From a virus, in IMG/VR virus record IMGVR_UViG_3300044631_002094, positions 1 through 37,858 of that record: a DNA stretch of 37,858 nucleotides, one strand, 5' to 3'. Shown in pieces: positions 5,327 through 28,404 of the stretch. The notes beneath the pieces are model-generated. The model did not search any database and was not told the origin of the DNA. It was given only the letters and a program-made list of their open reading frames with translations. Numbering within the stretch: position 1 is the first letter of the stretch; each line of letters starts with the position of its first letter. A program made the translations under genes and the position numbers.

Positions 5327-6795
5327 CGTTTACAGATATGATTCCTTTTGGCCCATGGCGGCCTGATATGGGGTCGTATAGGAACGATGGCAATCTTGTC
5401 ATGGCTAAAAACGTGCTAATTCAGGGTACGGATTATGTGCCTTTTAAGACATTAAGTGAACAGACGGGTGCATTGCCCAGTGATGTGATTGGGGCGGCTC
5501 GGTTTCAAACGCCTCGTGGTTTGCAGTATATTTTTGCTGGAACAAAGACGAATCTTTATCTGCTAACTGGGTCAAATACATGGTCTGACGTGAGCGGGAC
5601 AACGTACAATTCTGCTGCGACGGATTGGCGTTTTGATCTTTATGATGAAGTGGTTTTGGCGACAAACTTTGAAAATGTCCTTCAGCGGTACGATACGACT
5701 GTGGGGGGGACGTTTGGAAATTTAGCGGGCAGTCCACCTCGGTGTCGGGATATTGCGGTATCCAATTCATTTTTACTTGCCTTTAATCTTGTAGACGGTG
5801 GAACGGATCGCTACACGCGCCTGAGATGGTCAGCACAGGGCATCATAACGGATTGGACGACTTCAGGACTGGGGGCGGGCTTTAATGATGTTAGAGAGGA
5901 CGTAGGGGGCACTGGGCAGCGTGTGATGGCCCTTAATGACTATGCGGTGTTGTTCTTTACGGATTCCATTTATCGGGTGGAATACATTGCCCAGCCAGCA
6001 TCGTTTGGATTGCGGCCTTTGCCAAGGGGTCGTGGGACGTTAGCTCCCAATTCTCTTGTGAGGGATGGAAGTGTTATTTATTATTATGGGACAGATGGGT
6101 TTTATGCCTTTGACGGGACAAATTCTGTACCTATCGGGGAAAACAAGATTGATCGGTATTTTTATGATCTTGTGGACTTTGGAAAGTTAAAAAGCATTCA
6201 GGGTGCCCGTGATCCTGTAACTAAGAATATCTTATGGAGTTTTGTGTCTATCAATTCTCCCAATGGATATCCTGATATGATGATGTCTTATAACACGTCA
6301 TTGCAGGAATGGACGGTCATTCAGTATCCTGTGCGGTTTTTGTTATCGTCGTACACGACAGCCCAAACGCTGGAAACGTTAGAGACGCTTTACGGGTCTA
6401 TTGATAGCATTCCAGGGTCTTTGGATGATCCGATCTATGCGGGTGGTTTGCGTGTGTTTGGTGGGTTTTCGCCAAATAACAAATATGGGGTGTTTAGTGG
6501 TGCATCTTTAGAAGGTGAATTGCATACGGAGGATTTCCGGTTAAATAAGAATGGTCGGGCGCATTTAAGTGGCCTTCATGTGGTTACGGATGCAACGGTT
6601 ATGGTGGCAACAAATCACAGAAACTTGCAGACAGAGATGCCAACGCAAACGTCGTTTGGTGCTATTAACACAATAACGGAAAACGTAAACTTTGATGTGA
6701 TTGCGCGGTATACGCAGTTTGTCATTAAGTTATCGGGCACTTGGACACGGGCCAAGGGATTTATGGTTGAGTTTAAACCTACGGGAAATGAATAA
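5323..6795 (+). CDS. Packaged-DNA stabilisation / tail nozzle protein (P22 gp10-like)
   Basis: 490 aa, almost wholly beta-strand. Early motifs (FGPWRPDMGSYRNDG, then AKNVLIQGTDYVPF) and repeated hydrophobic-Gly-Thr blade-like segments match the beta-propeller nozzle proteins of P22-like phages, which plug the tail and keep packaged DNA inside. Overlaps the adaptor gene by 4 bp and the next gene by 1 bp (TAATG), showing tight translational coupling. Length is similar to P22 gp10 (472 aa). Confidence 0.8.
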   Translation: MTFTDMIPFGPWRPDMGSYRNDGNLVMAKNVLIQGTDYVPFKTLSEQTGALPSDVIGAARFQTPRGLQYIFAGTKTNLYLLTGSNTWSDVSGTTYNSAATDWRFDLYDEVVLATNFENVLQRYDTTVGGTFGNLAGSPPRCRDIAVSNSFLLAFNLVDGGTDRYTRLRWSAQGIITDWTTSGLGAGFNDVREDVGGTGQRVMALNDYAVLFFTDSIYRVEYIAQPASFGLRPLPRGRGTLAPNSLVRDGSVIYYYGTDGFYAFDGTNSVPIGENKIDRYFYDLVDFGKLKSIQGARDPVTKNILWSFVSINSPNGYPDMMMSYNTSLQEWTVIQYPVRFLLSSYTTAQTLETLETLYGSIDSIPGSLDDPIYAGGLRVFGGFSPNNKYGVFSGASLEGELHTEDFRLNKNGRAHLSGLHVVTDATVMVATNHRNLQTEMPTQTSFGAINTITENVNFDVIARYTQFVIKLSGTWTRAKGFMVEFKPTGNE

Positions 6796-22769: not shown

Positions 22770-23048
22770 ATGCACAAAACGCTTTTAAGAAGTCGCAGGG
22801 AATCGTTGGGTTGGTCAAGAGGTCATGTTCTTGATTTGATGAAAGACTACGGTTTTTCAGGATCGGGTCACAAGATTCTTTTTATCGAGGACCGACGCAC
22901 AAAAAGTCAGGACGAACCATTTTTACGTTGCCTTTGTAAAGTATTGGATTTAAATTTCGATGATGTGGCTAGAGAACTTGAGATCGTGCCGGAGAAGATT
23001 AAAAAAGCATACTTTGAGGGCAAGATTCAGTATGAGGAAGGTCGTTGA
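22770..23048 (+). CDS. Cro/Xre-like HTH transcriptional regulator
   Basis: 92 aa, start after AAAAAGGATG. The first 65 residues read like a lambda-Cro/XRE helix-turn-helix: LLRSRRESLGWSRGHVLDLMKDYG, then IEDRRTKSQDEPFLRCLCKVLDLN. Short tail, no dimerisation or peptidase domain, so a Cro-like switch rather than a CI-like repressor. Divergent arrangement with the leftward operon promoter at 22724-22753 suggests it controls that control region. Confidence 0.75.
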   Translation: MHKTLLRSRRESLGWSRGHVLDLMKDYGFSGSGHKILFIEDRRTKSQDEPFLRCLCKVLDLNFDDVARELEIVPEKIKKAYFEGKIQYEEGR

Positions 23049-25022: not shown

Positions 25023-25469
25023 ATGAAAAATGATGCGTGGTTAAAGTATAATGATGCGTGTAAAAAAACGATCATTGCGTTTCTCAAGAAATACTACCCT
25101 GAAGAATCTTTGGAAACGGTGTATTTTGTTGGGTGGGACGAAAACGATTACACCATGGTTTTTGAATGCTGTGATATGTACTACAGCATAGACTTTGTGC
25201 AGGAATGCCTAAAGCTAGATGCCACGTTTGAAGATATAAATTCACATTATGAATACGTCCTTCAATGCGCGATACAAGGCAAAGAAGAGGGCATTAACTT
25301 TAGAACGTGGGTGAAACACCCTGAGAAAAGAAAAACACCTGAACAGCAGCCTTTTACTACGGAAAAAAAGCTACGGCAGCTACTCAAGAAATGTATCCCC
25401 GCCCTTGAAGGCGTGACAATGCATGAATCTTTGGTGGCAGAGATTCAAAAAGAAATTAAACATCTTTAA
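25023..25469 (+). CDS. Hypothetical protein
   Basis: 148 aa, ribosome-binding site AAGAGA. Aromatic acidic middle with Cys-Cys (YTMVFECCDMYYSIDFVQEC) and a helical Lys-rich C-terminus. Divergent from DUF551. No known motif. Followed by the 364-bp control region. Confidence 0.7.
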   Translation: MKNDAWLKYNDACKKTIIAFLKKYYPEESLETVYFVGWDENDYTMVFECCDMYYSIDFVQECLKLDATFEDINSHYEYVLQCAIQGKEEGINFRTWVKHPEKRKTPEQQPFTTEKKLRQLLKKCIPALEGVTMHESLVAEIQKEIKHL

Positions 25470-25601
25470 AACCGTCTAAAACCGTCTAAAACTATAAAGG
25501 CCGCTTGTTAGCGCAAGCGACCTTAAACGGGATCAGTGGACCTGTCCCAGTGACAATAGTGTCAGCTGTCAGCGTACAACAGACTTCCCTTTTTGTCAAC
25601 T
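25470..25601. promoter_or_regulatory. Intergenic hairpins and small repeats after 25023 gene
   Basis: Two 10-bp repeats AAACCGTCTA (25469-25488) follow the stop. AAGGCCGCTTG (25497-25507) pairs with CAAGCGACCTT (25514-25524) with one mismatch, a hairpin without T-run. TGACA-ATAG-TGTCA lies at 25551-25564. No gene seen in this stretch. Confidence 0.7.
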
Positions 25602-25696
25602 ATTTCCAAAATGGAAATAACCACTCATGGGCACAGATGGGAAATCATGGGAATTTATGGGACCATTTATAATTACAGAAGGTACCATTTATAATT
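25602..25696 (+). promoter_or_regulatory. Phased iteron and operator array upstream of the replication gene
   Basis: Palindrome ATTTCCA-AAA-TGGAAAT (25602-25618); four ATGGG motifs at 25627, 25637, 25647 and 25657, each exactly 10 bp apart, so on one face of the helix; then two ACCATTTATAATT direct repeats (25662-25674, 25684-25696) 22 bp apart. Likely binding sites for an initiator or repressor. Confidence 0.72.
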
Positions 25697-25699
25697 TTA

Positions 25700-25723
25700 G
25701 GTTGACTTTTCTGTTAGTATAAT
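25700..25723 (+). promoter_or_regulatory. Promoter of the replication leader
   Basis: Consensus -10 TATAAT at 25718-25723. A TTGACT lies only 10 bp before it, too close to serve as its -35; the 17-bp position has TTTTAG. The promoter may thus need an activator bound at the upstream array. Confidence 0.6.
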
Positions 25724-25729
25724 ATACCA

Positions 25730-25804
25730 ACAACATGGGGCTAGGCATTGCAAGGCCGAAAGCCCAATTCTTCCTTCCTCGGGACGGGTTGCCCCATATT
25801 TTTT
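25730..25804 (+). ncRNA. Structured leader or small RNA ending in a terminator
   Basis: From the expected start (~25730) the transcript holds ATGGGGC (25735-25741), inner hairpin elements (GGC-CGAAA-GCC) and GCCCCAT (25791-25797), followed by T-run 25799-25804: a perfect 7-bp closing stem with 49 enclosed bases. The loop segment CCTTCCTC (25773-25780) is the exact complement of GAGGAAGG (25817-25824), the ribosome-binding site of the next gene. It could be an attenuator/leader or a ~75-nt small RNA. A 23-codon frame also starts at 25735 but has no ribosome-binding site. Confidence 0.6.
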
Positions 25805-25833
25805 AAAGAGGGAGAAGAGGAAGGTATCACGAA

Positions 25834-26754
25834 ATGAAGCCCCCATACATAAAGCTATACGTGAAGGATTTTGCCTTTGAGATACAAGGCATGACCAAAA
25901 AGCAAATCGGCGAATACATGCTAAAATTCTTGGAAGCCTACCGCCAAGAATCAATCCCCGATGAATTATCCGACCACAGTATCTTTTCAGAATTGCAAAA
26001 TTCTTTGGAAACCTACGAAGGAATCTGTGAAAAAAATCGCAAAAACGGAAGCAAAAATGGAAAAAAAATAACAAAAAATGAAAAAAAACACGATCACGAA
26101 ATTTTAAAAAACGATGTTAGAAATTTTGAACACAATGCAACAAATACAATGGATTGCGAAAGCGACTGGCTTAATTCTGGCTACCCAGAAAAAAGCCAAA
26201 AAGAACCCACACTGGTTAACCAAGAACCAAGAACCAATAACCAAGAACCAAATATAAAAAAGAAAAATATAAAAAAGAAAAAAGCTGAGTTTGAGAAACC
26301 AGAGGATGTGAGTGAAGAGACTTGGGTTGGTTGGTTGGCGTTACGGAAAGTGAAAAACGCTACCGTGACGGACGTGGTGATTAACGCTATGCGGAAAGAG
26401 GCTGATTTGCTTGGCTGGACGTTAGAGCAGGCCATGGTGGAAACGTGCTCAAGAAACTGGCAAGGCTTTAAAGCGTCGTGGGTGCAAAATGATATGGCCC
26501 GCAATGTCCATCAGAAGACTGCCAGCACGCATCTGGTTGCGTCTGGCATGGGTGGTATACCTAGCAAGGCAGATATGGTGCTACGGTTGAAAAATGGGGC
26601 TTGGAGTGATGTGGATCAGTTGCGGGGTATTTTGGATCATTTAAAAACGCTGAGGCTGATGGAAACCAAGGTGAATGAGCAAAATGAATTGCAGCGTTTG
26701 GCGACAAAAACGCATTTGCGGATTTGTGATTTAACAGGGGAAGCTCCTTTTTAG
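25834..26754 (+). CDS. Replication initiator / replisome organiser (DUF1376-type)
   Basis: 306 aa. Residues 1-75 are DUF1376-like: IKLYVKDFAFEIQGMTKKQIGEYMLKFLEAYRQ-type helices (winged-helix DNA-binding half in known phage initiators). Residues 100-152 are a low-complexity linker (NQEP and KKK repeats) encoded by origin-like iterons. The C-terminal region holds W..F.ASWVQ (NWQGFKASWVQND) typical of the helicase-loading/primosomal part of such proteins. Starts at ATG 25834, 9 bp after AAGG. No phage helicase, primase or polymerase gene was found, so it probably recruits the host replisome. Confidence 0.78.
   Translation: MKPPYIKLYVKDFAFEIQGMTKKQIGEYMLKFLEAYRQESIPDELSDHSIFSELQNSLETYEGICEKNRKNGSKNGKKITKNEKKHDHEILKNDVRNFEHNATNTMDCESDWLNSGYPEKSQKEPTLVNQEPRTNNQEPNIKKKNIKKKKAEFEKPEDVSEETWVGWLALRKVKNATVTDVVINAMRKEADLLGWTLEQAMVETCSRNWQGFKASWVQNDMARNVHQKTASTHLVASGMGGIPSKADMVLRLKNGAWSDVDQLRGILDHLKTLRLMETKVNEQNELQRLATKTHLRICDLTGEAPF
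26218..26281 (+). other. Candidate replication origin: five 7-bp iterons plus AT-rich repeats
   Basis: Five head-to-tail copies of AACCAAG (copies 3 and 5 differ in the last base) at 26218-26252, directly followed by two copies of ATATAAAAAAGAAAA (26252-26266, 26267-26281). Iterons followed by an AT-rich opening region inside the initiator gene is the layout of lambda ori in O. Confidence 0.72.
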
Positions 26755-27989: not shown

Positions 27990-28404
27990 ATACGAAAGAA
28001 TTTCAAAGGTTATCAAGGAAGCCTTTGGGGAGCCAAACCAGTTTATGAGCGACCATTATATTAAAGACCATGCCGATCTTGTGCATTTTGCGTATGCGGT
28101 TTTAGAGGAGTTTGACGGGCCTCGTGTAGATGATGTTTTATTGAAGGAATATGAACACGGGCACTCTAAACATTTTTCTGAAAAGCAGTTAATTTTAGAC
28201 ACCATAAAACAGCTAACTGAGGAAGGCATTGTGCCTACTCGTAGGTCTATATGTGATCGGTCAGGTATAGACATAGCCAGAGTATCAAACCTGCTTCAGT
28301 CTTTGCGATTAAAGGCCATTTTAGACAGTAACACGACATACGGGGGGCGCAGAGTTGGCCGTATGGTTGAATCTTTCTCTATCAGGGAGAATAAAGATGC
28401 TTAA
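27979..28404 (+). CDS. Winged-helix DNA-binding protein
   Basis: 141 aa from ATG 27979 with GGAGG, overlapping the previous gene by 11 bp. Residues 68-115 (KQLILDTIKQLTEEGIVPTR, RSGIDIARVSNLLQSLR) form a MarR/IclR-like winged helix; the N-terminal 60 residues are helical. Probably a regulator or replication accessory protein. Confidence 0.68.
   Translation: MTHKYERISKVIKEAFGEPNQFMSDHYIKDHADLVHFAYAVLEEFDGPRVDDVLLKEYEHGHSKHFSEKQLILDTIKQLTEEGIVPTRRSICDRSGIDIARVSNLLQSLRLKAILDSNTTYGGRRVGRMVESFSIRENKDA

Follow-up and report, generated by a model that had tools for sequence, protein, structure and literature searches.

Antisense RNAs directed against Shine-Dalgarno sites are a known kind of regulator in phages. 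The C4 RNA of P1 and P7, 77 nt in length, acts in trans as an antisense RNA against a ribosome-binding site; its complementarity is borne by loops and it sets heteroimmunity (PMC12197685; PMC8546580). The CI RNA of P4 is located in the early operon, binds the nearby seqA sequence and controls early termination (PMC10111431). The int-alpA RNA (RF02996) is a catalogued family whose type in Rfam is given as sRNA only. A literature search found it named in one paper, without a function, the original int-alpA publication being outside the reach of that search. Plasmid copy-control RNAs such as CopA, RNAI and Inc RNA are transcribed from the strand opposite their target.

The window analyzed here is the whole stretch of 37,858 nucleotides of a virus record, which carries phage genes for a P22-like portal, scaffold, head, DNA-transfer, endolysin and terminase. 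The initial annotation had placed a structured leader in front of a replication gene, and the gene indeed encodes an O-like replication initiator of 306 aa (25834-26754, + strand; phrog_678, E 2.9e-17; phrog_6451 primosomal protein, E 8.3e-12). Its ATG is at 25834, with the Shine-Dalgarno site GAGGAAGG 9 nt before it. Within the initiator ORF, tandem AACCAAGAACCAAG and AAATATAAAAAAGAA repeats (26218-26245 and 26250-26279) are candidate origin iterons; a 40-bp stretch has 97.5% identity to primosomal-protein genes of Acinetobacter phages.

Upstream of the gene, positions 25735-25797 can fold into a three-way junction with the order P1, UA, P2, GAAA, P3, U, all on the + strand. The outer stem P1 pairs AUGGGGC (25735-25741) with GCCCCAU (25791-25797). 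This 7-bp stem had been described as a hairpin; the stem is real but closes the junction. It is followed by J1/2, the UA of a CUAG motif (25742-25743), the P2 hairpin GGC...GCC (25744-25757), J2/3 with the sequence GAAA (25758-25761), and the P3 hairpin (25762-25789), in which GCCC (25762-25765) pairs with GGGU (25786-25789) around a 20-nt loop. The loop holds the antisense stretch CUUCCUUCCUC (25770-25780), which is anti-Shine-Dalgarno: CCTTCCTC (25773-25780) and GAGGAAGG (25817-25824) are exact reverse complements, allowing an exact 8-nt pairing of CCUUCCUC in the P3 loop with the initiator Shine-Dalgarno site, here called t2. Stem and exact complement were both found where the initial annotation had put them, but a second copy of the target had escaped it. 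This copy, t1 (GAGGGAGAAG, 25808-25817, + strand), is complementary to the loop if two G-U pairs and one mismatch are allowed. Single-sequence folding of the window was uninformative (z -0.5 to -0.8).

A putative promoter at 25702-25729 (+ strand) consists of TTGACT (25702-25707), 15 nt and TATACC. The TATAAT that had been proposed as the promoter is present, but it overlaps this spacer only ~10 nt from TTGACT, so that the pair is not a canonical sigma-70 match; what relatives keep is the equally non-canonical TTGACT-N15-TATACC/TATAAC, and TTGACTTTT with TATACC/TATAAC is retained in L083, L086, L106, L299, L300 and L302. An RNA initiated from this element would start at about 25731-25735. Two 16-nt repeats 22 bp apart (GGGACCATTTATAATT / GGTACCATTTATAATT, 25659-25696) directly precede the promoter and are possible repressor operators. 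A terminator-like hairpin of 11 pairs (25497-25524, - strand) separates the RNA leader from a small ORF that ends at 25469. The putative immunity region of the window gave no match in PHROG and Pfam scans.

The only Rfam match of the window is to int-alpA, which at 30.6 bits (E 1.5e-4; 421 nt) stays below the gathering score of 35.8. Relatives were collected by a pattern scan of viral contigs, which returned 37 loci, about 23 of them real; early loose DNA patterns had given many chance matches, which were removed by demanding the outer stem. A pattern search of bacterial genomes found three with the RNA. Model R1, made from 18 sequences, separates real from chance loci. Model R2 was made from int-alpA members and relatives with the clade of the window excluded; it recovers the window RNA at 25734-25798 (29 bits, E 4.6e-5) as its sole match in the window, and scores 38.7 bits for the near relative L085. 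Another locus, L163 (G002:C118), scores 54.2 bits with R1 and 66.1 bits with RF02996, the latter exceeding the cut-off. Because a model without the window's clade finds the window, and because L163 is matched by both R1 and RF02996, the window RNA is a divergent int-alpA relative. It shares with int-alpA the three-way junction with P1, P2 and P3, the CUAG and CGAAA motifs and the trailing t1 site. It is not filed as a plain member since its score stays under the curated cut-off and its genomic surroundings are not those of int-alpA: it does not lie between int and alpA genes, no integrase was recognized beside it, and the next gene is the O-like initiator. It also differs by its longer loop and by having a putative promoter of its own.

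RF02996 scored above its cut-off in 23 of the 150 genomes sampled from one family, in 37 of 321 from a class and in 47 of 299 from a phylum, or about one in 6 to 9 of the sampled Pseudomonadota genomes, against 0 of 14 control genomes. In one case (L273:865-3358 of G487:C33) three int-alpA-type copies occur within 2.5 kb on one strand, near integrase-like and toxin-antitoxin-like genes; in two of them P1 is disrupted and no targets are evident. An R1 search among relatives of the initiator protein (L001-L080) gave no match, so the RNA does not track the initiator protein family.

The likeness to C4 and P4 CI (RF01695) lies in an outer stem around two hairpins, an antisense sequence in a loop, a target at or near the ribosome-binding site of the same operon, and the occurrence of specificity variants (PMC12197685; PMC10111431). 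In the window, too, the loop is complementary to the ribosome-binding site of its own operon. The junction letters differ from those of C4 and CI, however, and both targets of the window RNA are downstream. The C4 model RF01695 gave no match to the window up to E 10. P4 CI itself matches the C4 model; R1 did not recover it, and it was discarded as a direct homolog of the window RNA. The resemblance to plasmid copy-control RNAs is that the loop would recognize the leader of an initiator and would set initiator dose. In contrast to those RNAs, the complementarity is short and the window RNA and its target are both on the + strand, where all R1 and R2 matches are found.

The stems are supported by comparison of relatives. 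In the R2 alignment, 13 of the 15 stem pairs show two-sided changes, 97.7% of the cells are paired versus 33-48% for slid controls, and the covariation score is 0.776 versus 0.06-0.15 for slid partners; a second alignment, A1, gives the same picture of stem covariation. Two-sided changes affect 7 of 8 P1 pairs in R2, without the window's clade, and 6 of 7 in A1. They also affect two of the three P2 pairs (GGU/ACC in L296) and all four modeled P3 pairs. The CUAG of J1/2 and the AAA of J2/3 are invariant in both alignments.

The covariation check that the initial annotation had proposed was passed by these stems and also by the pairing between loop and target. For each RNA, the P3 loop was compared with the region after P1 (t1) and with the 20 nt that precede the start codon (t2), and the null was formed by swapping loop and target partners between loci. 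Over 63 non-redundant loci, the longest Watson-Crick match with t1 averaged 5.35 nt for own partners versus 3.87 nt for swapped ones (z 12.4), and with t2 5.38 versus 4.01 nt (z 11.0). Restricting the set to a single locus for each distinct loop (51 loci) gave z values of 11.5 for t1 and 9.9 for t2, and 10 held-out loci found later gave 4.6 and 3.9. Shared ancestry among loci is only partly removed in this test, and the 63-locus set still holds a few chance loci (L091, L105), which should weaken and not create the signal. Distinct loop types recur with their own targets, among them CTTGAACAA, CCCTGTG, CCCTTA, CCTTTCA, TTCCTTGCC, CCTCCG and CTCCGTT. The leaders of phage initiators L107, L108 and L088 are included, and the idea of a built-in anti-ribosome-binding site is strongly supported. 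The two targets have different settings. The start of t1 is 6-11 nt past P1 in 47 of 48 loci (median 8), and t1 is not displayed in a hairpin loop (flank pairing z 0.1). The end of t2 has a median distance of 7 nt to the start codon, and in 34 of 48 loci a small hairpin presents t2 in its loop (flank pairing z 7.3 versus swaps); the window lacks this hairpin, which is seen around the Shine-Dalgarno site in many relatives.

In view of the above, the best explanation for the whole is a C4/CI-like anti-Shine-Dalgarno RNA that represses translation of the initiator, to which we assign a probability of about 0.6. The 5' leader of the initiator mRNA would hold a three-way-junction RNA of ~65 nt of the int-alpA type, with the anti-Shine-Dalgarno sequence in its P3 loop. 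Pairing of the loop with t2 would block ribosome loading, so that less initiator is made, while pairing with the adjacent copy t1 may assist or modulate the pairing with t2. Because t1 and t2 compete for the same loop, repression is no more than the probable sign of the effect. Most probably, RNA made from the promoter just upstream would be released and accumulate, repressing in trans both the gene copy that it precedes and copies that come in, as C4 does in P1/P7 and CI in P4. This would result in control of initiator dose or in superinfection immunity, with the loop setting the specificity. A trans-acting RNA of ~75 nt with dose control resembling that of plasmid copy number, as suggested earlier, is possible.

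Trans action is somewhat favored over cis action in the sequence comparison because loop codes diversify before the same gene, because many relatives display the target in a hairpin loop, and because orphan RNAs keep their loop. The scaffolds of L085 and L108 are equal in all letters save the outermost P1 pairs, and yet their loops are AATTCTTCCTTCCTCGGGAC and ACTCTTCCCTCGCAGGAC, with the corresponding targets GAGGGAGAAGAGGAAGG and GCGAGGATGCGAGGAC. The initiators of L083 and L108 share their first 70 aa and have unrelated sets of loop and targets. Such switching on a near-identical scaffold would be expected of a trans-acting specificity determinant, by analogy with the heteroimmunity of P1 and P7. 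That a single phage genome can hold two RNAs with unlike loops also speaks for the proposed mechanism. An orphan RNA of the window type, with a 20-nt loop identical to that of the window and no adjacent targets, is present in L083, L086, L094 and L106. It is followed there by a second variant RNA (GCCGTGGCTAG...GCCTGCCACGGC) with the loop ATCGTTC, identified by eye without a model, and by two GAACGA targets; the initiator gene that comes next is a different one. The orphan RNA might act on rival phages.

The principal alternative is a purely cis-acting switch, a tenable but less probable option, in which a pseudoknot between loop and t1 leaves the Shine-Dalgarno site free (ON) and pairing of the loop with t2 blocks it (OFF). 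Which of the two forms would depend on co-transcriptional folding or on ribosomes that complete translation of the upstream gene. An intramolecular pseudoknot would account for the nearly fixed distance of t1 to P1 no less well than trans pairing. The targets are always on the RNA's own transcript, and the predicted fold of the full-length leader favors the loop paired with the target region. Coupling to an upstream gene is conceivable in many relatives, which are mostly intercistronic: among 48 relatives in which the upstream ORF has at least 100 aa, 38 have the stop codon of this ORF at most 30 nt ahead of P1, mostly at 7-15 nt. The upstream genes include integrases (L164, Pfam) and, in larger phages, structural-operon genes, one with a weak resemblance to a major capsid protein. 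Such larger phages hold two RNAs of the family, located a few nt past structural-operon genes; within a genome the loops differ and each has matching targets (L288:1491-1545 and 6316-6371 in G875; also G876, G881 and G883). The window is unlike most relatives in this respect, since it has its putative promoter and lacks an upstream gene near enough for coupling. Furthermore, such a switch offers no obvious pressure for joint change of loop and target before the same gene on the same scaffold, and the orphan RNAs keep their loop.

An improbable option is a riboswitch or protein-binding element, with a ligand bound by the junction (CUAG, GAAA, UUG) that stabilizes the pairing of loop and t2. The invariance of the junction letters across distant relatives and the leader or intercistronic position would agree with this, but a fixed scaffold is also kept by C4 RNAs, and the downstream genes of the family (replication, structural operons, regulators and unknowns) have no pathway in common, unlike those of a metabolite riboswitch.

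Transcription attenuation, which the initial annotation had considered, is slightly less probable still. Here P1 and a U-run would terminate transcription unless pairing of the loop with the target prevents or replaces termination. In the window, the 7-bp, G+C-rich P1 is followed by T6, within a U-rich stretch (25798-25805, + strand) that may be a weak terminator or a mere spacer. The T-rich stretch is thus present as claimed, but the terminator reading is weak because the run is not conserved: five or more T within 12 nt of P1 occur in just 6 of 61 loci, and even in close relatives the run has degraded, for example to ATATTTTATAAAG in L109, or decayed to TATTTTAT. The window stem was also not listed by a terminator scan, which admits short loops only.

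Chance complementarity between a pyrimidine tract and a purine-rich Shine-Dalgarno site, the worry raised at the outset, is refuted at the level of the family: such matches are common and swapped partners already share about 4 nt, but swapping preserves the general pyrimidine:purine bias and own pairs still exceed swapped ones at z 11-12 and in the held-out loci, with loops such as CTTGAACAA with GTTCAAGG that are not generic anti-Shine-Dalgarno sequences.

Other sites in the window that could pair with the loop were discarded. A match at the start of a small ORF (ATGAGGAAGG, 23032-23041) is kept in G873, which has a different loop, and is lost (ATGACGAAGG) in G868 despite a matching loop; it was rejected as a trans target because site and loop do not change together. 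Further copies of GAGGAAGG at 28219 and 36249 are inside coding sequence and not at clear gene starts.

The assignment of a loop-code mechanism with two targets to int-alpA appears to be new, as does the deployment of such an RNA before the replication initiator of a phage. In many phages and bacterial genomes the relatives change loop and target in concert, which points to a widespread family of RNA switches, apparently with no assigned function, that would lower expression of the next gene. A broader and more speculative reading, which we consider doubtful as a whole, is that int-alpA-type RNAs are very widespread, interchangeable loop-coded repressors, in which a constant scaffold with a short code would silence the next gene through two tandem complement copies. 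Phages would swap codes as plasmids swap incompatibility groups, and the orphan RNAs, still bearing the code that belongs to the initiator of a related phage, would block replication of this rival from a prophage. The comparison offers int-alpA a testable function, namely loop-coded control of the ribosome-binding site of the next gene with two coded targets. Being placed on a replication initiator, the window RNA would act as a small RNA that determines replication dose or immunity of the phage, with a specificity that may be read from about 8 nt.
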